DNA from: Dictyophora rubrovolvata
Lineage: Eukaryota > Basidiomycota > Agaricomycetes > Phallales > Phallaceae
Reading direction: 5' to 3'
Assembly: GCA_029959195.1 (NCBI GenBank)
Contig: CP114118.1
Coordinates: 2,418,001-2,482,000 of the forward strand
DNA: 64,000 nt
Shown piece by piece: positions 4,434-32,138 of this stretch. The translations under genes and the position numbers were made by a program. The notes beneath the pieces are model-generated. The model did not search any database. It had not been told where the DNA came from and saw nothing but the letters and a program-made list of their open reading frames with translations. The stretch's first letter is position 1; each line of letters opens with the position of its first letter.

Positions 4434-5826
4434 ATGGCTCCGTCTGCGAATTGGTTGGCGTTAAAGAAGGTCCGTCAGTCCTGCTGCCAGAGAAACATCT
4501 TCCTTAAAGCTTTTGTTTCTCACTGACATTCTTCGATTAGAAGCTAGCTGTAGAAGAACCGGCAAAAGATGACAAGAGACCGAAAAAACTACGCAAAATA
4601 GCAATTTCCTCTGAGACTGTGGAGATTGCGTCAGTGACGTCCACCGCCACCAGCGCTGGTGGGGTTCGGAAGGCGTCATCATTACCTCCTGATCCTTCTT
4701 CAAGTCGCGGAGGGAATCCTGATTCGGTAGAAGCCTTACGACGTATGATTCAGGGAGAAGATTCACATCCAGAATCCCATCTATTGTACGAAGAACGCTT
4801 TGGCTTTTTTTTGCTCCTCTCCTTTGACGCGCGTGGTCTTTTTTGACTGTGGTTTAGACCGGGGAAATACATCTCTATGGATTGTGAAATGGTTGGAATC
4901 GCAGGAGGCTCTGGCAGTACAAACAGATTCTCAAGGAGAAATGAAGATGATGAATCCTCGCTCGCACGAGTTAGTATCGTTAATTATTACGGCGTTGTTT
5001 TATTGGATGAGTTCGTAAGACAACGGGAACGTGTTACAGATTGGCGGACGGCATTTAGTGGTATACGACCGAGCGATATGACAAAAGGTATAGTCTCTTT
5101 TTCATTCCTTTTTCGACTTGCATGTGGAACATATAACATATATACGATACCTTAGCAAAACAGTTTACAGATGTGCAAAAGAAAGTCGCAGACCTGCTTA
5201 AGGATCGGATTCTAGTTGGACACGCTGTTCACAACGATTTACAATGTTTGTTACTTTCGCATCCGCAACATATGACCCGAGATACCCAGTTTCTTGCCGG
5301 TAGACATGGAACTTTGAAGCAGAACCTGAAAGCACAAGAAAACGGTGGCCCTGTGAAACGGAACAAGAAATGGGCATTGCGACATCTTGTTTTACACGAG
5401 TTGGGGATGCAGATACAAGCCGGGGAGCATTCTAGCGTATGTGCAACCCCTTTTCAACATGCTGTCGTTATCTTATTGGAAACATAGGTCATTGATGCTC
5501 GAGCTACAATGGCCGTTTATCGGCTTCATAAGAAGTTATGGGATAAAGGATTTCATCCGCCAAATAAAGACCAAAACGTACCTCAATTGTCTTCAAGTTC
5601 TCTGTCGGAAAACAAACCGATCAATAAAAAGCGTAAGCGCGATGAGGAAACGCAAGAGGACGACCTGGAGGCGAACCGAAAACTTCGGGGGGTTAGTTCA
5701 GGTTTATCGGTTGTTGTCAATCGGCATAAAGGAGGTCAGAAGTCAAAGGAAGTCCTGTCGGGAACTAAAAGTCGAAAGGAGAGAAGAGCAGTAGCTGAAG
5801 ACGATGATTGGTGGACAAAGCTTTGA
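4434..5826 (+). CDS. REX4: RNA exonuclease 4 (DEDD 3'-5' exonuclease)
   Basis: Five exons, 4434-4469, 4541-4785, 4858-5087, 5156-5436 and 5488-5826, give 376 residues in one frame. REX4-type exonucleases trim pre-rRNA in the nucleolus. The DEDD core is visible: [11 protein letters not shown] (first Asp and Glu), [14 protein letters not shown] (second Asp) and [20 protein letters not shown] (last His/Asp block). [15 protein letters not shown] is also typical. The N-terminus and tail are Lys/Arg-rich ([16 protein letters not shown]), suiting nuclear import. The start is the first ATG, right after a pyrimidine-rich leader. A damaged, truncated copy of exons 1-3 with their introns sits at about 18530-19246. 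Confidence 0.95.
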
Positions 5827-17469: not shown

Positions 17470-17983
17470 TGTTAGGTACAGTGACCTGAGACTATTCTGG
17501 ATAATTCCGAATAAGTCCAGACCACTGGGGACAGATGGAACAGAAGTACAGAAGTATGGGATGAGGGACTCAGCTTCAGCTTATATACTGCACCCACTTG
17601 CCCAGCTTTATATATCCCTCAATTTCGGAGTGACAGGGACTTAGAGTACGAGATTAAACTGATATTTAGACTGGGGATCCACAGCTGGGAGCTGAGGGTT
17701 TAAATACAAGAGGGAACAGAACTATAGGAATGGGGATAAGAATAGATAAAGAAAGGTAGCATATGGTTGAACACAGCTTGGGATGATGATTATACAATCT
17801 TCATCCCTTATTACTAAGAGTCTGGGGCTGATATCCCCATAAGAAAGGTGACGGATATGAAGTCTGGACAGAGTACTGACAAGTATGGAATGGGATTGAT
17901 ATGGAGATGCAGGATGAGTGCGGAAATAACCAGAATAGGATTGGACTTCCAAATTAGGAAGGTGTGGCACGCAGGGCGTGACA
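17470..17983 (+). repeat. diverged solo LTR (LTR-A type)
   Basis: About 514 bases, TG...CA bounded: starts TGTTAGGTACAG and ends GGGCGTGACA. It aligns along its length with the LTR-A unit at 21637-22162 (shared blocks such as GGGACTCAGCTTC, CAGCTTTAT, CCAAATTAGGAAGGTGTGG) but with many substitutions, so it is an older copy. Flanks AGTAC (17465-17469) and AGCAC (17985-17989) may be a decayed 5-base target duplication, with one mismatch and a one-base offset. No internal retroelement region adjoins it. Confidence 0.75.
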
Positions 17984-18529
17984 GAGCACAAGGAATGAGT
18001 ACAAAGAAAGGGAATAATGTTTTCAAGAGGGTATGACACAGGAACAATATAGGTAGAGTAAACATGAACCAAAAATAAGGAAATTGCAATGCATGGCATT
18101 AGCATACCCTGTCTCCTGCTGCTGATGAGCTAGAGACTGGTGATAGGGATGTGGATCTGAAATCCCAAAGGTATGAGTATTTTTCAGCTGAATGTTTATC
18201 ACTTGCTCTCTTTTGGAATCTGAAACATATATGTTTTGATTTTATAACCTATGCAGTTTATTGATGTTGAATACTCTGACTGAATTTTTGAGAGTTTAAA
18301 ATTAGTTCAGAAAATTTTTCACACATAATTTCTTTCATATGTAGATTTAATCTTTTTATACTCAAATACAATATGCCTGGATTAAGCCCTGAACATGGGT
18401 GCGGCTTGCTGCACATATTCTCTGCTAGTGTGACATATAACAGCTGACTGACTCAGAGCAACCGCCGACATGACAAAGGGATTGGAGTAAGTATACTTTG
18501 CTAAATTCATTCCTACTATTTGGTACCAA
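17984..18529. other. gene-free stretch between solo LTR and REX4 copy
   Basis: AT-rich, no coding motif. I see nothing that identifies its origin. Confidence 0.4.
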
Positions 18530-19246
18530 CACTACCATAATCACTTTCCCTCCATGGTTGCACTGGCGTTAAAGAAGGTTCGTCAGTCCTGCTGCCAGTG
18601 GATTGAACATCTTTCTCAAGTCTTTGTTTCTCACTGACATTCTTTGATTAGAAGCTAGCTGCAGAAGAACCAACAAGAGGTGGCGAGACAGAAAAATTAC
18701 ACAAAATAGCAACTGCCTCTGAGATTGTGGAGAGGCTGCGTCAGTGATGTCATCCAACACCAGTGTTGAAACATTGAAACTTCGTTGATGGGCCAGTTCA
18801 GAAAGTGCCATTACCTTCTTCAAATCGTGGAGGGAATCCTGATTCAGTAACCTAAGCCTTACGATGTGTGATTCAGGGAGAAGATTCACACCCAGAACCC
18901 TGTCTACTATATGAAGAACACTTTGGCTTTTTTTTGCTCCTCTCCTCTGACATGCATGGTCTTTTTTTGCTGTGATGTTGAGACCAGGGAAATACATCAT
19001 TATGGATTGTGAAACAGTTGGAATCGCAGGAGGCTCGGGCAGTACAAAAAGATCCTCAAATAGAAATGAAGATGGTGAATCCTCACTTGTACGAGTTAGT
19101 ATCATTAATTATTAGTGTTGTTTTATTTATTAGATGGGTTCATAAGACAATGGGAACGTGTTGCAAATTGGCGAACAGCATTTAGTGGTATACAACCGAG
19201 CGATATGACAAAAGGTACAGTCTCAGTCTCTTTTCATCCCCCCGAC
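18530..19246 (+). pseudogene. truncated, intron-containing copy of REX4
   Basis: Resembles the REX4 gene from about its start codon (4434) into its third intron. GCGTTAAAGAAGG at 18567, the first intron with CTCACTGACATTCTT, the second intron with TTTGCTCCTCTCCT, and the exon 3 end GCGATATGACAAAAGG are all kept. Because introns are present it is a DNA-level duplicate, not a retrocopy. It is disabled: stops interrupt exon 3, small insertions change frame, and the catalytic MDCEMVG reads MDCETVG. Resemblance to the REX4 intron runs up to CGAC at 19243-19246, where the palindromic LTR element begins; the rest of the gene is missing on the other side. Confidence 0.88.
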
Positions 19247-19247
19247 C

Positions 19248-19773
19248 TGTCACACTCCGCGTGCCACACCTTCCTAATTTGGAAGTCCGATCCCATTCCA
19301 CTTATTTCCATACTCACCTCACATCTCCGTAGCAATCCCATCCCATACTTGTCAGTACTCTGTCCGGACTTCAAGTCTGTCACCTTCCTTATGGGGAAAC
19401 CAGCTCCTGACTCTTAGTAATAAGGAACAAAGATTTTATAATCATCACCCCTAGCTGTGTACAACCATATGCTACCTTTCCTTATTTATTCTTATCCCCA
19501 TTCCCGTAGTTCCGTTCCCTCTTGTATTTAAACCCCCAGTTTCCAGCTGTGGATCCCTAGTCTGAATATCAGCTTTATTAGTCTCATCTTGTACTCTCTA
19601 AGTCCCTGCCACTCCAAAATTGAGGGATAGATAAAGCTGGGCGAGTGGGTGCAGCTTATAAGCCGAAGCTGAGTCCCTCATCCCGTACTTCCGTACTCCG
19701 TCTTCCGCCTGTCCCCAGCAGTCCGGACTTTCTCAGAGACATCCAGGATAGTCCTGAACCGCTGTACGTAACA
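19248..19773 (-). repeat. LTR-A unit in left arm
   Basis: On the minus strand this 526-base unit starts TGTTACGTACAGCGG and ends GAGTGTGACA, giving TG...CA termini. It mirrors the unit at 21637-22162. Near its start a short inverted repeat surrounds a CTA core. Confidence 0.75.
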
Positions 19774-20099
19774 TGCACCAAAATCTATATTTGGTAAAAA
19801 TTAGGGTAAATGTCACAAAGTTTCCCTAATCCCATGATATGTCCCTCAGAGCTTGAATTTATCTTTGCAACTACCCAAAACCCACATCCAAACATTTTCT
19901 TGTTATCCCAAAAATGTCAATACAAAAGAAATGTCCTCATTCCAAATTTGCTCTTCTCATTCCCTACCATCCCTTCACACTCCTTCTATTGATGACTCTG
20001 ATTGTTTTCATTTTGTCCCTCCTACTCCTGATATCAATCTCTGTGATTTGGACACTCAGTACTATTGTTACGTACAGCGGTCCGGGACTATCCCGGATG

Positions 20100-20506
20100 T
20101 GTCAGGGTACGCTAGCGTCATCCCCTTATTTTCCTTCATTTATCTTCAGTTCTGGTTTATCTTATTCATTTCCTTATTTCTCGTATTTTATCCCATTTCC
20201 TGCATTCCCCCTTCCTTCCGTATTCCCTTCTTTCCCTCCAACGGGCGCTGAGCGCCCATTCCCATCAGAGCCATGGCCTAGGCCCCGGCTAAAAGTCTGG
20301 GACCGGCGTGTATCTGTGCCCAGTCCATGAACCGAAGGCCGTGTATGGCCTTCGCCGTTTTTTCATAGTATATAGTTAGTAGCCCTAGAGGAGGGATCCC
20401 TAAGTTTGTTCTCTTAGGATCCCCTCCCTCTAGGTGAGTTAGTAATTCTACCAAATATATTTTACTTAGGATCCCCTCCCTCTAGTCTGAGTGAGTAGCC
20501 CTGACA
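20100..20506 (+). repeat. nested solo LTR (LTR-B) with perfect GGATG target duplication
   Basis: 407 bases beginning TGTCAGGGTACGC and ending GTAGCCCTGACA. It is flanked by GGATG at 20095-20099 and again at 20507-20511. Removing it rejoins an LTR-A start, so it inserted into LTR-A-type DNA. It carries a repeated GGATCCCCTCCCTCTAG word (about 20417-20433 and 20469-20485) and an inverted relative near 20385. The mirrored copy is 20904-21310 on the minus strand, which lacks the duplication on its inner side. Confidence 0.82.
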
Positions 20507-20903
20507 GGATGTCTCCGAGAAAGTCTGGACCGCTAGGGACAGTGTGATGTATCCGCCACAACTTACACGTCAGTGACTTGTGTAACAGTACTTACGTCAA
20601 CGTCCGACACTTGCATAAGTAAGGTCCAGTAATTTAAATACTGTAGATTAATCAAGAGTACTTCAAGAAGAATATCAATGACAATCTCCTATCAGCTTGA
20701 ACCTTGAAGTCAAACTTCGTTTAAGTGTCTTTGGTTAATGCAAGTTTACAGTTGCAAGTGTGTGCGTGGAAGTATACATGGCTATGAATGATTACTTGAG
20801 TGAGTATAGACTCGAGAGAGAGTAGGTCTTGCTGGTGAAGGTTGAAAGTCCTTGGGGGTCCCTTTAGACTAGAGAGAATAGTATTGTTGATAATGGTTAT
20901 GAT

Positions 20904-21310
20904 TGTCAGGGCTACTCACTCAGACTAGAGGGAGGGGATCCTAAGTAAAATGTATTTGGTAGAAATACTAACTCACCTAGAGGGAGGGGATCCTAAGAGA
21001 ACAAACTTAGGGATCCCTCCTCTAGGGCTACTAACTATATACTATGAAAAAACGGCGAAGGCCATACACGGCCTTCGGTTCATGGACTGGGCACAGATAC
21101 GCGCCGGTCCCAGACTTTTAGCCGGGGCCTAGGCCATGGCTCTGATGGGAATGGGTGCTCAGCGCCCGTTGGAGGGAAAGAAGGGAATACGGAAGGAAGG
21201 GGGAATGCAGGAAATGGGATAAAATACGAGAAATAAGGAAATGAATAAGATAAACCAGAACTGAAGATAAATGAAGGAAAATAAGGGGATGACGCTAGCG
21301 TACCCTGACA
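20904..21310 (-). repeat. LTR-B unit in right arm
   Basis: Mirror of 20100-20506. Its outer flank reads CATCC (complement of GGATG) at 21311-21315, but the inner flank is ATGAT, not the expected copy. The palindrome junction therefore falls exactly on the LTR-B end on this side. Confidence 0.75.
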
Positions 21311-21636
21311 CATCCGGGATAGTCCCGGACCGCTGTACGTAACAATAGTACTGAGTGTCCAAATCACAGAGATTGATATCAGGAGTAGGAGGGACAAAAT
21401 GAAAACAATCAGAGTCATCAATAGAAGGAGTGTGAAGGGATGGTAGGGAATGAGAAGAGCAAATTTGGAATGAGGACATTTCTTTTGTATTGACATTTTT
21501 GGGATAACAAGAAAATGTTTGGACGTGGGTTTTGGGTAGTTGCAAAGATAAATTCAAGCTCTGAGGGACATATCATGGGATTAGGGAAACTTTGTGACAT
21601 TTACCCTAATTTTTACCAAATATAGATTTTGGTGCA

Positions 21637-22162
21637 TGTTACGTACAGCGGTCCAGGACTATCCTGGATGTCTCCGAGAAAGTCCGGACTGCTGGGGACA
21701 GGCGGAAGACGGAGTACGGAAGTATGGGACGAGGGACTCAGCTTCGGCTTATAAGCTGCACCCACTCGCCCAGCTTTATCTATCCCTCAATTTTGGAGTG
21801 GCAGGGACTTAGAGAGTACAAGATGAGACTAATAAAGCTGATATTCAGACTAGGGATCCACAGCTGGAAACTGGGGGTTTAAATACAAGAGGGAACGGAA
21901 CTACGGGAATGGGGATAAGAATAAATAAGGAAAGGTAGCATATGGTTGTACACAGCTAGGGGTGATGATTATAAAATCTTTGTTCCTTATTACTAAGAGT
22001 CAGGAGCTGGTTTCCCCATAAGGAAGGTGACAGACTTGAAGTCCGGACAGAGTACTGACAAGTATGGGATGGGATTGCTACGGAGATGTGGGGTGAGTAC
22101 GGAAATAAGCGGAATGGGATCGGACTTCCAAATTAGGAAGGTGTGGCACGCGGAGCGTGACA
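21637..22162 (+). repeat. LTR-A unit in right arm
   Basis: 526 bases, TGTTACGTACAGCGG at the start and GGAGCGTGACA at the end. Same family as the old solo LTR at 17470-17983. It directly abuts the orphan inositol-3-phosphate synthase fragment. Confidence 0.78.
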
Positions 22163-22179
22163 GTGCGCGACACCGGCTG

Positions 22180-23377: not shown

Positions 23378-24809
23378 TCACATATAATTCCAGGAGACAT
23401 CATGAGGATCTGGTAGTCGGATACAAAATTCCTTTAGACACCAATCGTTGCTCGAAAATTTGCTAGTATCGGGAGGCGGCTTATGCAAGTCTTCTAGACC
23501 ACGTCGCATCCATGTCGGATGCCACTTCTGGTTAGGCGAACGCGATTGCTCCTTGACATATGGTCCAAGCTGATCGTCATTCCAAATGACAGGATCCCAT
23601 CCTCCGTCGCGGGTAAAGATTTCAAAAGTTTGCTCCCACCACTCCGATACACACTTCTTACTCGCAGTAATATTTTGCAACAGGTCATCTTCGTTATCAG
23701 ACGAGACCGGCTCATGACCGTCAGAGGTGTCGGTGTATTTCCATTTGACAATCTCGAGCAGCGGGTTGAATGGGCCAGAACGAGTACCGGTGCGACTACT
23801 AGCCGCACAGGAGGATAACGACCTCGTTTGTCTTTCCGAAAAACCATGGTCGCCATCAGGAGTTTCCCATTCACGCCACATACGATAAGTGTTGTAACAT
23901 GTCCATAATCCGGACAATTTGTGAATTTTGTCAATATAGCTCCTCGCGTCTTCCGTTGTTGCGATTTGCATGCGCTGCCTGAAGATTTCTAGCATATCTT
24001 CAGGATAAAAACCCGCGGGAGGTAGCTTTGGACCGGCATTTTAAAGTACAAAGTGAGGATGTGCGTGACTTTTGAGAAGGCCAAGATCTGTGAATGGATA
24101 TCGGTGAGTACTGGATTGAAGTGAAGACGAGTCGGTAGCTGAACAGGTGATACGAGTGATAGTAATCTCTTTCATCGTCGGCCTGAGAGGAACGAGGCGG
24201 TAGATGAATTCCGTTATGGGATATACCTAGTACAAGGAGTCGGTTAACAATAATGCGCAAGGAGGAATTGAGACGAACACACTAAGGGTTTTCGATATAT
24301 TTTCATTTGCTCCTTCATCTCATAAACCATGTCAATGGTAGCCGGATCGGGCAGCAACACGCAATGGCCACCGTTCAGGAGAATATGGAAATCCTCTCGA
24401 ACTATCAACATTATTTGAGTACAAGGTGATAATTATATTGAAGCATGCATTGAAAGTACGCACGAAAAACGATGTTATAACGGGTGTCAAGATTGAGAAT
24501 GTTAGGACGCAAACCCCACCACCATTCTAAAACCTCGAACTGGGTTTGGGTGGGTAAACACGATATCGATAGTGACATAACAAAATGACTAACATTTAAT
24601 CTACGTGCATGTTTTGAAACGAGGTGGTACGCCCGAACTGCCATGGATTGAAGGGTAAGGAGACATTTGCCATTGTTCGGATCTGCGAAAGCGGCTTTGT
24701 TCTTGTGCTTAGAGGCAATGGAAGAACTGTAGAGGCGTTTTGCGCGAGAAGTTGAGTGAACAGAGGAAGAGAAGACGACACGACGCCGCGGCGTTGGTGA
24801 GGTCTCCAT
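23378..24809 (-). pseudogene. HNH-nuclease-like basidiomycete family protein, copy 1, one in-frame stop
   Basis: Exons can be followed from ATG 24809 (METSPTPRRRVVF). The text runs KCLLTLQSMAVRAYHLVSKH, then across an intron at 24593 to FEVLEWWWGLRPNILNLDTR, then DFHILLNGGHCVLLPDPATI, then VYPITEFIYRLVPLRP, and on to a 205-residue open C-terminal stretch ending at 23378. The His / Asn / His spacing (HLVSKH, DTRYN, DFHILL) fits an HNH-type fold seen in an expanded family of basidiomycete proteins. A TAA stop lies in frame at 24043-24041 (HFVL-stop-NAGPK) where copy 2 has HFALFNAGAK. Function unknown; either a young pseudogene or a sequence error. Confidence 0.6.
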
Positions 24810-25513
24810 CGTCGTTCTGTAGTTGAAATAACCACAGATGAATGACGAGCACGCGTCCCGTCTGACATGAACTAGTGTGTGTATACAGTATGACTATGAC
24901 AACATCGACTATAAGTTGTGACGCGTCTGCAAAATGCACGTGACGCACGCGCCGGTATCCAATGGCGACCAATGTCCAGTGTCGTCTGACAGGCAGCGAG
25001 AAATACGAGTAACGAAAACTCAAGTCCACAGATGAAATTTATCTTATGAGTGCGCATTATAACGCACTTTTTCAACAACTCGATTGTATGGGAACTTATA
25101 AATATATATGACCTCGGTGAGAAATTTGACACGACTGACTGACAACTTCATTATTACGGTGCAAACACTAAGAAGACTTCCGGTAACACGACTTGAATTA
25201 ATATATAATGTTAGTGCTTAGTGAATAAATTGAAATAAGGCATTGTACAGGATCAAAAAAAAAGAGCTTAGGACTTTGCTGTGCCGCCGGCTTTCTTTGA
25301 CACTTAAAAAAAGAAAAAAAGGATCTACGTATACGTATAAGATAAGAAGCTATTAGCAAAAAGGGGTAAGAACAAACGTTTTTGAAAGTAAGGCAAACCA
25401 ATGCGAGCACGCAGCCTCCAGCCCAGGACGCTCTGCTAAAACCTCCAGATCCTCACAACGGGCGCGCTTTGGAACTATATGGGGTAGTGGTGGGTGTCCA
25501 TAGTTTGTACAAA
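24810..25513. other. gene-free stretch between the two HNH-like copies
   Basis: Contains the likely promoter of copy 1 and an AT-rich region with poly-A runs near 25255 and 25310. No supportable gene. Confidence 0.45.
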
Positions 25514-26376
25514 TTACAGATCTTCGTGACACAGCTTCTCGCCTGTCGTCGTGATCTGCATACACCGCCTGAAGATTTCCAGTTGACTCGCAGGAAACTC
25601 TTCGAGAGATATCTTTGCACCAGCATTAAAGAGTGCAAAGTGTGGCTGTGCATGACTCCAAAGGAGACCGATACCTGTGTACGGATATTGGTGAAGGTTG
25701 AATTGCAACGACGAGTCGGTAGATGAACGGTCGATACGAGTGATCGTGACCTCATTCATTGAAGCCGAGAGCGGAACGAGGCGGTAGGCGAATGTTGACT
25801 CGGGATATGTCTAGTACAAAAAACCGGTCAACAATAATAGTATGTAAACAGGAACTGAAATGAGTATACCAGGGGTTTTCGCTGTACCTTTTGCTCCTCC
25901 ATCTTCTCAGCGACAATATCAATGGTAGCTAAATCAGGCAACGGCGCCCAATCGTTACTGTCAAAGAGAATATGAAGGTCATTTGAGTACATGCTGACGG
26001 TTGATTATATTGAAAATACGCACGAAACACAATGTTGCAATGTGTGTCAACATTGAAGCCACCAAAATCAAACCCCAACTGCGCGCCGAGTGAGTAAATA
26101 CAACAATATTGATAGTATCATGACGAAATGACTAACATCTGGCCCAGATGGGACGGGGTGGAACGCATGGATTGCCAAGGATTGCAGGGTGAGGAGATAC
26201 CTGCCATGGTTCGGATCTGCGAGGGAGGCTTTGTGCTTTTGCCCAGGTGCGAGGGAAGAGCCGTGAGGCCGTCTTATTGGGGGAGTTGCGACACGAGGAT
26301 TGCCATTGTCGTTAGAGTCCTCATCGGAGGATCCGGGATAAGAGACGAGTGCACGATTTGGTGGCGATGAAACCAT
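25514..26376 (-). pseudogene. HNH-nuclease-like family protein, copy 2, shortened
   Basis: Starts MVSSPPNRALVSYPGSS at 26376, with YLLTLQSLAIHAFHPVPSGP, then an intron with the same GTTAGT donor as copy 1. LGFDFGGFNVDTHCNI, DLHILFDSNDWAPLPD, then FAYRLVPLSASMNEVTITR and HFALFNAGAKISLEEFPASQ follow. It ends at LCHEDL (25514), well short of the C-terminal region kept in copy 1. Several family residues are changed (RYN to HCN; HLV to FHP). Same strand and order as copy 1, so a direct duplication followed by decay is likely. Confidence 0.55.
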
Positions 26377-27384
26377 AGTAAGCAACTGAATAAAGTAATC
26401 CTCAGTTGTAGAGAACAACTACCCTAGTATCCTAGACTGACCTAGAGGCAATTATTTCAATAGAGCACTTGCTCAGGCTCTGGTGTAGGAGAACTCTGAG
26501 AGAATTCTGACTCCAACAAGAAACTGTACAATTCATACTCGAAGAATGAGGCCCAGTGGACATAGATCGGGCTTAAGAGTATACCTCCTCAGTGTTAAAG
26601 AACAACTACTGTATATTATAACGGACCTAAAAAGTTTACTCTTTTACAAAGAAGTGAGAAAGAAATTAAGAACAATGATAAAAATGAATACTTACCCTCA
26701 GTGTTAAGAACAACTGAGGAGAACTAATTCTAGCGGAGAGACGAGCTATTTATATGAAAATTTATTTTCGTTTGTAAGCGTATTAGTAAGCATGTCTTTC
26801 TACCAAGAATGCTTGATTTATGAGAGAAACAAGGAATAGTTTCGCCTTCAACGGACGCTTACAAAGCGCCATTATCGCTTCGTTGTCGTTTTTCAGCTGG
26901 TGACGGTCAGCTTTCAATAAATCCTACTCTTATGAGTTCCATGCTACACGCCAGTATGAAAAATCTGGGTAATCATTTCGTTAGTTATCGATGTACATAG
27001 TCTCCTCAGCTATCAAGCGTATAACTTAATAATGATTAGTGAACACTGGAAACAACGGTAGCATTCTCGTCACATCTCCTGGCAGACGAATCAGAGCGTC
27101 CAAAGCCCGAATTCCCTTGGATCCCCTCTTCTGAGGGCTACTGTCCGCGTTGTTACCGGTAAGGACGTCTATGTTCCCATTTCCCGATGATGGGTGTTGG
27201 GATATCTCCATTACTGCGATGGACCAAGCTATATTTCGTACCAAAGTTCTGGTTTGGGATTATCAACTTTTCAAGTGAATCAATGTCGTCAACTTCTTTG
27301 AAATATACGTAACTTGAATTTTTTTTCTATTTACGTCGTCTTCGGCCACGTAATTATCGCGATAAACTTCTTTCTTCACGTCTA
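26377..27384. other. gene-free stretch with short interspersed repeats
   Basis: The word CCTCAGTGTTAAAGAACAAC or close variants occurs at about 26400, 26587 and 26697. Near 27305-27370 a stretch (TCTATTTACGTCGTCTTCGG, CCACGTAATTA) resembles 22700-22730 in the Plavaka remnant. The last part is the HEN1 promoter. A short minus-strand frame at 27026-27244 has no recognised motif. Confidence 0.45.
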
Positions 27385-30087: not shown

Positions 30088-32138
30088 TCACGCCGTTTGT
30101 CCATAAATAATCGGAATGCCCTGATCACGTCCAATCGCGTTCTTGCCCTTATCAGTTCCTGCAACAGGTAGAGGTTGTAAAGGGTCAATCGGTGTACCGG
30201 GTGTAGCAGGAGTTCCGTCGGTATCAGCATCGGGTGTGTGAGTACCACTTTGAACCTCTTCTAAAGGTTTCTCAACGGACCCCGCTGCGCCTATCCTCGA
30301 CATTTCGCTGACGAAGGAAGTACCCCAGAACGCTGCGGAGTATTTGTTGACATACTATAGTGTTACAATACAATCGTTTTCAGACCGTGAACCTTTAGTA
30401 AAACTTGAACAACGATTACTTACCTTGAACAACTTGCGTTGATTGTCTCTCCGTGTGTCCATATCCATTGTGACAGCTTCGTATATGGCATCGGCAAGTT
30501 GCTGCGAGTCCCATGGGTTGACAATGATACTGCCATTCAACGATTGAGCAGCACCTGCGAATTCGGACAAGATCATTGCTCCACAGCGCTTTTGTTGACA
30601 TGCGATATATTCGTATGATACCTGAAGAGTATGGTAAATGCTTTGCTTTGCGGAACCAAAGGTAAACAAGGAAACGGGACTGACCAAGTTCATCCCATCA
30701 CGAGTACTCGAAACCAAGCAAACATCGCTAACAGCGTATAGAGCACATAGCTCATCGAATGGGAGAGATTTGTGCATGAAATGAATGGGCATGAACTCAA
30801 CGGTTCCGAAACGCCCGTTTATGCGTCCAACAAGTTCGTTAACCGTGGAACGCAGATTTTGGTATTCTTCAACGTCTTGCCGTGACGGAACTGCCAACTG
30901 ACACAACACGACCTATCAGAAAAGAAGAACTTTAATGACAACTTTCATATAAGAAAGTAGGGCCTCTTACTTTCCCAATCCATTCAGGATGTTGAGTCAA
31001 GAAGAGTTCCAACGCGTGTAGTTTTTGCGGAACACCCTTGATATAATCAAGTCGATCAACGCCAACGATGATTTTCACGCCTTGGAAACGATTCTCAAGA
31101 GCCTGTATTCTGGTTTTGACACTGTCTTTTTCAAGGTTCTACAGAAAACAGCACATTAACTTGGACCATGACAGGCTGTTCTTAACGAACTTACGTCGAT
31201 GAAAGATTGAGGATCAATACCGATGGGGAATGTCCCCACATGAGCATAGCGGCCAGCAAAGTCAACACCGTTTGGCATCGTCGATAAACCGAGAATCCGT
31301 GTGCATGAAGATAAGAAATGACGGGCATAGTCGTATGTGTGGAAACCAATCAGATCGCAGCATAAAACGCCGAGGAGAATTTCTCTTCGAACAGGAAGAA
31401 TTCTGTGAAGAAGATTAAGTAATTAATCTTAAGTGTATAAAAAGAAAGCATAATAGGGTTGTGTTACCTGTAAATTTCACTACTCGGGAATGGGGTGTGT
31501 AAGAAGAAGCCAATTTTGACGTTGGGGACTGGGGCAATAATTTTGTCCGGATGTTCGGTGATGCCATGCATTATGGAAGCCAGCTCTTTGCCCGATAGAC
31601 TGTCATCCCAGATATATTTGTCGACCATGCCACGCAAAATCATTGGGAGAAGCATAAGATGATAATCTTGAACCCAAACGGTGTCACCCTCTTTTAATAA
31701 TGAGCGAACAGCTTCTGCGAAATGCCAGTTGGCTTCGCGGTAAGCCTTCCAATGGTCTTGGTCAAAGTTCATCTCGCCAGGGTGATAGTGGAATAATGGC
31801 CATAAGATAGAATTTGAAAAACCGTTGTAGTGCTTGTCAGCGAGATCGTCTGATAAGTAGACGGCCACGCAAGAGTATTCATCCATTAGACGTTTGTTAA
31901 CGAGTGGGCGGTCCTTTTCTGGTATATAACGGCCTGGCCAGCCTATCCAGGTGAAAGCCATACTCTTTTTGCAGCCCGAGAGAGCAGAAACGAGACCTCC
32001 TGAGGACATTTTGAAGTGGTATTCGCCTTTGGCATCTTTGGAGATGGTGATAGGCAAACGATTAGAAACAATGATGAGACGACGGCTGTCCGTCCGGGGT
32101 AAAGGAGAATCAGTAGGCGTAGAAACAGAGGAGACCAT
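30088..32138 (-). CDS. TPS1: alpha,alpha-trehalose-phosphate synthase (UDP-forming)
   Basis: Exons 32138-31468, 31402-31195, 31138-30971, 30912-30685, 30621-30424 and 30354-30088 give 579 residues. It condenses UDP-glucose and glucose-6-phosphate to trehalose-6-phosphate in the cytosol. GT20 landmarks in order: RRLIIVSNRLPITI, SSGGLVSALSG, FTWIGWPG, WVQDYHLMLLP, GFFLHTPFPSSEIYR, GFHTYDYARHFL, KIIVGVDRLDYIKGVP and RDGMNLVSYEY. After the core there is an acidic, Pro/Thr-rich tail of about 70 residues (HTPDADTDGTPATPGTP) ending PIIYGQTA. The synthase is single-domain; no trehalose-phosphatase domain is fused. Confidence 0.97.

Follow-up and report, generated by a model that had tools for sequence, protein, structure and literature searches.

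A palindrome among nested solo LTRs of Dictyophora rubrovolvata, a probable rearrangement scar

The analysed window, a stretch of 64,000 nucleotides of Dictyophora rubrovolvata (C2:2418001-2482000 in a 28.2-Mb genome of 11 contigs), contains two long arms that mirror each other across a short spacer. The locus raises the question of whether such a palindrome is a mobile foldback element that moves with the enzymes of another element or the trace of a rearrangement, and by which route a rearrangement would have produced it.

Mirrored arms

An inverted-repeat search of the window returned arms at 19247-20506 and 20904-22163, each 1260 nt long and 397 nt apart, in agreement with the near-identical facing arms of the preliminary description. 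The arms match at 1247 of 1260 positions (99% complementary), which is far beyond chance. They had been called exact, which is right for their identical length and wrong for their sequence: 13 of the 1260 positions differ, 12 by transition and one by transversion. Reading of the sequence contexts places nine of the 13 differences at CpG sites as changes from CpG to TpG/CpA, a pattern that suggests decay of methylated repeats, and leaves four differences (0.3%) outside CpG. The rarer family base lies sometimes in the left arm and sometimes in the right. Palindromes are a known assembly hazard, and one arm could in principle be a false mirror copy of the other. Both the 13 differences, with the rarer base in either arm, and the different original insertion context that each arm keeps (below) stand against this artefact, and it is considered highly improbable.

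The components of the arms were compared with their other copies, a few of the compared rows being one copy viewed from two loci. The arms are 98.5% identical to each other in LTR A against at most 96.4% to other rows (32 rows), 99.7% against at most 92.9% in the segment of repeat C (29 rows), and 99.0% against at most 95.8% in LTR B (28 rows). The nearest relative of each arm among all rows compared is thus the other arm, which indicates that the duplication, or the last gene conversion, is younger than the insertions. The likeness of the arms may stem from upkeep by gene conversion or simply from a recent duplication.

Nested repeats and their target duplications

The features of the palindrome and its flanks are collected in Table 1. 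The palindrome is a stack of nested dispersed repeats and not an element. LTR B is inserted within A2, a second and inverted LTR A, with the target duplication GGATG. The order given earlier for each arm, namely LTR A, a 292-base linker, a short piece of A and LTR B, is right; the short piece, described as the start of LTR A, is instead the 3' tail of an oppositely oriented copy. The placing of the two breaks is borne out: the outer one coincides exactly with the end of an LTR A and the inner one exactly with that of an LTR B.

Table 1. Features of the palindrome and its flanks, in window coordinates
Feature	Start	End	Strand	Remarks
Left flank	18564	19247	+	82% copy of window 4456-5097
Left solo LTR A	19248	19773	+	526 bp, TGTCAC..GTAACA; flanks CGACC / TGCAC mismatched, recombined LTR
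Repeat C fragment (linker)	19774	20065	+	292 bp; starts about 5 bases inside the 5' end of C
A2 3' tail (second, inverted LTR A)	20066	20099	-	34 nt, ends GGATG
Left solo LTR B	20100	20506	+	407 bp, TGTCAGGG..CCCTGACA; GGATG on both sides, original insertion context
A2 continuation beyond the B insertion	20507	20542	-	36 nt
Repeat D, first 361 bp	20543	20903	+	Cut exactly where B' begins
Right solo LTR B'	20904	21310	-	Flanks ATGAT (D side) / CATCC (A2 side) mismatched, recombined LTR
Mirrored A2 tail	21311	21344	+	
Mirrored C fragment	21345	21636	-	
Right solo LTR A'	21637	22162	-	CGCAC / TGCAC read in LTR orientation, differing at one base; keeps its original site in repeat C
Repeat C, first 10 bases	22163	22172	-	TGTCGCGCAC, outside right LTR A'
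Truncated inositol-3-phosphate synthase fragment	22173	22611	+	C-terminal part, 87% to the gene on contig C7; 5' part missing at the junction

The linker is the 5' end of the longer repeat C, for which 40 of 66 candidates were scored, giving at least 38 sites besides this one. The other copies of C continue together, many of them over 1.4-1.8 kb, up to the limits of the loci compared. Direct contact between repeat C and a complete LTR A is found solely at the palindrome among the loci compared; on contig C5 (L003), repeat C lies 9 nt from an LTR A that C cuts short. The 397-nt spacer between the arms is not unique DNA: LTR A supplies 36 nt of it and repeat D the other 361. Repeat D aligns elsewhere over about 1.04 kb, and all seven of the other copies that hold its first 361 bp run on past the point at which B' interrupts it here. 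Two other assignments were considered for these parts and rejected. The linker, being the 5' end of repeat C, is neither a unique spacer nor the internal part of an A element, and the inverted A pair is not an LTR retrotransposon: the A copies in each arm stand tail to tail, where such an element or a TRIM has its two LTRs in direct orientation.

No coding sequence for a transposase or reverse transcriptase was found inside the palindrome, as had been claimed. The accompanying term non-coding is nearly but not strictly right: none of the frames that were searched matches a Pfam family, and yet a 138-aa frame at 19914-20330 overlaps the linker and small frames are present in a copy of the linker repeat. 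Pfam searches with the frames of C and D copies likewise returned no family. The collection of plasmids gave no match, the sole Rfam match was to tRNA, and no tandem repeats were found. Integrase matches in the genome number 69.

Long, near-identical inverted arms that hold no transposase frame are what a foldback element would look like, and a mobile foldback element had been proposed as one of two readings. Among the 40 candidates scored, of 516 found in the 28.2-Mb genome, the full arm matches its two copies at this site alone, and the next longest match in that set covers arm positions 2-818 on contig C5. No equal flanks of 3-12 bp surround the composite, and its internal pieces are separate insertions with target duplications of their own. 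The single palindrome in that set and the missing flanking duplication leave the foldback family without support, and an origin as a mobile foldback element is scarcely credible.

Repeats A and B have the TG..CA ends of solo LTRs (TGTCAC..GTAACA in A, TGTCAG..CTGACA in B). For every distinct full-length copy at the loci of the best-scoring candidates, the 5-bp flanks on the two sides were compared; incomplete copies, duplicate views of a copy and extra loci of the palindrome site were set aside. The flanks of the 26 copies of A are identical in 16, differ by one mismatch in four and by more in six; the corresponding numbers for the 28 copies of B are 10, four and 14. Flanks with at most one mismatch (20/26 for A and 14/28 for B) compare with means of 1.6 and 1.3 copies (maximum 6) for shuffled flanks, so both repeats insert in the manner of LTRs. 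In the loci compared, copies with mismatched flanks are nonetheless fairly frequent, above all for B, so a mismatch by itself is a weak sign of recombination.

Nesting of solo LTRs is frequent in this genome: LTR A sits within LTR B at four places (L005, L008, L016 and L022). On contig C8, only about 31 bp separate two equally oriented copies of LTR B (777282-777688 and 777720-778125), and an older LTR A copy (84%, minus strand) is present at window 17490-17983, 1.3 kb to the left of the palindrome.

At the palindrome, the two LTRs with mismatched flanks carry the flanks of different insertions. The right B' (ATGAT/CATCC) joins the context of D with that of A2, CATCC being the reverse complement of the GGATG that flanks the left B, and the left A (CGACC/TGCAC) joins a foreign flank with the context of C. 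The left B and the right A each keep their original context, and neither arm is therefore simply the parent of the other. Such junctions are signs of ectopic exchange between LTRs.

Flanking DNA and possible routes to the palindrome

The DNA outside the arms was compared with its paralogues. On the left, the BLAST match to the paralogous segment reaches 19224, and a gapped alignment suggests that the similarity extends as far as the junction with LTR A. Positions 4456-5097 and 18564-19224 form a local duplication (82%) that ends near this junction. Farther left, positions 18000-18430 hold a fairly young repeat with copies at several other places (92-99%, e.g. C6:1621560, C9:1299885 and C10:1585049) that ends at 18430. 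On the right, the segment 22173-27268 is a paralogous copy of the inositol-phosphate-synthase locus on contig C7, including the C-terminal fragment, and the neighbouring gene of that locus has two copies in the window (about 23930-24820 and 25527-26330). Beyond the known fragment, the C7 locus has only weaker matches, among them pieces at window 26881-27259 (67% and 79%) that belong to the 5' half of that gene for the synthase. The 5'-half pieces at 26881-27268, to the right of the fragment, look like older remains, and a link between the two may exist. A trehalose-phosphate-synthase frame at 31464-32138 (minus strand) has its best match in PDB chain 8fhw, which we take to be a Cryptococcus enzyme.

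A reciprocal exchange would leave a partner copy with the remaining halves of the target duplications, and short-pattern searches returned none that was convincing. The pattern for the partner B/D junction had one match, on contig C1, with three mismatches and unlike the expected junction; the pattern for the partner A/left-flank junction had none. The continuation of the left-flank paralogue (1503 bp) matched, besides itself, eight places over at most 253 bp at 67-79%. These missing partner junctions and flank continuations, a negative result of short patterns and of searches capped in number of matches, suggest that the event was non-reciprocal or that the partner was lost.

With good though not full confidence, the palindrome is read as the scar that an accident of repair left among clustered, nested solo LTRs, an inverted duplication accompanied by loss of the stretch separating the left A from D. 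We infer that a copy of B once stood in D and a copy of A in the left flank, that both switches belonged to one event and that the steps ran in the following order. Repeat C would have inserted into the inositol-phosphate-synthase paralogue, two LTR A copies would have inserted into C in opposite orientations, B and D would have entered the second of these (A2), and a further, inverted B would have entered D. A repair strand that entered on the left by way of another, separate LTR A would then have paired with the inverted A bounding the cluster on the right and copied A-C-A2-B-A2-D leftwards. In D, the inverted B would have let the strand pair with the B in A2, and copying would have continued outward through A2-C-A into the right flank. 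The product would be the inverted duplication, without whatever had separated the left A from D; neighbouring DNA was probably deleted in the event.

The nested order is seen directly, as is, exactly at each breakpoint, an LTR whose flanks do not match, and these observations fit the earlier suggestion of a rearrangement by template switching or break-fusion duplication. If pairing ran through a B formerly in D and an A formerly in the left flank, the inner junction should lie at a B end in D and the outer one at an A end, as they do. The target duplication of the left B is intact and that of the right A nearly so. Six of the eight mismatches of the left A lie at CpG; none of the six falls in the middle, which holds 7 of the 21 CpG sites, and the chance of this is 0.055. 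Its outer 80 bp are 96.2% identical to the A copy at L004 against 94.9% to the right arm, a difference of about one base. Comparison with the other A copies revealed no crossover point, donor tract or donor haplotype in it, and six of the 26 A copies in the flank comparison also stand without matching flanks. No ancestor that lacks the rearrangement was seen.

The event is best described as non-reciprocal, an inverted duplication with deletion, and a repair strand that switches twice accounts for it in one step where inversion followed by gap repair takes two. In that two-step history, a crossover between inverted LTR A copies inverts the cluster, and ectopic gene conversion later replaces the DNA to the right of D; the conversion would be gap repair copied from the inverted left arm and anchored in B and A. 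The same junctions are predicted. Inversion between inverted A copies is seen on contig C10, where the copies at 1394429-1394965 (L013) and 1395954-1396491 (L021) carry the flanks ATCAG/ACTTT and ACTTT/ATCAG. These exchanged target duplications, with about 1 kb between the copies, mark the pair as a simple inversion and show that inverted LTR A copies have undergone exchange elsewhere in this genome. The two-step history needs two events at one small place and nothing separates it from the one-event model; it is regarded as possible but less likely.

Another inverted pair, at C6:2290006-2293294 (L060), encloses repeat C and consists of two copies (1374 bp, 96.7%) of a different C-like repeat. 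It was considered as a second palindrome among 86 loci compared and set aside: a third copy (L029) is equally similar (96.8%), so the pair reads as independent insertions.

Fusion of sister chromatids through inverted B copies, breakage of the resulting dicentric and healing by pairing at LTR A would also create these junctions. In yeast, breakage-fusion-bridge cycles have been invoked for inverted duplications, and resolution of dicentrics by way of Ty elements has been described (PMC3102749). Healing at the present locus would have to rejoin the right chromosome end, of which there is no sign either way, and this route is considered unlikely.

Known systems and meaning

Precedents for each ingredient of this reading are found in the literature (PMC3102749, PMC2775673, PMC8473981 and PMC10622511). 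In Saccharomyces cerevisiae, gross chromosomal rearrangements mediated by Ty1 and delta sequences involve several exchanges (PMC3102749). They share with the palindrome a dispersed LTR homology, and the Ty products include inverted duplication of Ty copies and dicentric resolution. The yeast events described there were selected in the laboratory and used full-length Ty elements, whereas the palindrome is a natural kilobase scar at solo LTRs, fixed in the assembly. The yeast system resolves dicentrics; involvement of a dicentric at the palindrome is hypothetical.

The junctions of inversions generated by Galileo in Drosophila buzzatii contain transposon copies in inverted orientation, target duplications that have been exchanged, and nested insertions of later date (PMC2775673); the LTR A pair on contig C10 has the same exchanged flanks. 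Galileo is a DNA transposon and the event is reciprocal, whereas the palindrome is non-reciprocal, with duplication and apparent loss. For break-induced replication, PMC8473981 describes a strand that changes template and, as the other course, two-ended gap repair, and either would yield this palindrome. The case treated there is long-tract conversion between homologues at the yeast site FS2, and the palindrome is an inverted duplication. Foldback-primed inverted duplications (PMC10622511) are likewise short-spacer inverted duplications from break repair. Unlike in that process, the switch points of the palindrome coincide with the ends of matching LTR families, which suggests long homology rather than short foldback priming. 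The searches of the open library returned no paper on the locus or on natural kilobase solo-LTR palindromes, and these may exist elsewhere.

The palindrome is most probably a rearrangement scar made by solo LTRs, of a known kind and single as far as the search reached, and it adds no new kind of element. Thanks to its nested insertions and their target duplications, a non-reciprocal rearrangement can be followed at nearly single-base resolution, and the LTR A inversion on contig C10 provides an internal control within the same genome. A broader proposal would make nested solo LTRs a recurrent switching hotspot, at which strands hop between inverted LTRs, palindromes form repeatedly, neighbouring genes are deleted and the arms are later homogenised by conversion; this is regarded as very doubtful. 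If the reading of the palindrome as a repair scar is true, solo LTRs that are themselves immobile can still mirror and delete DNA.
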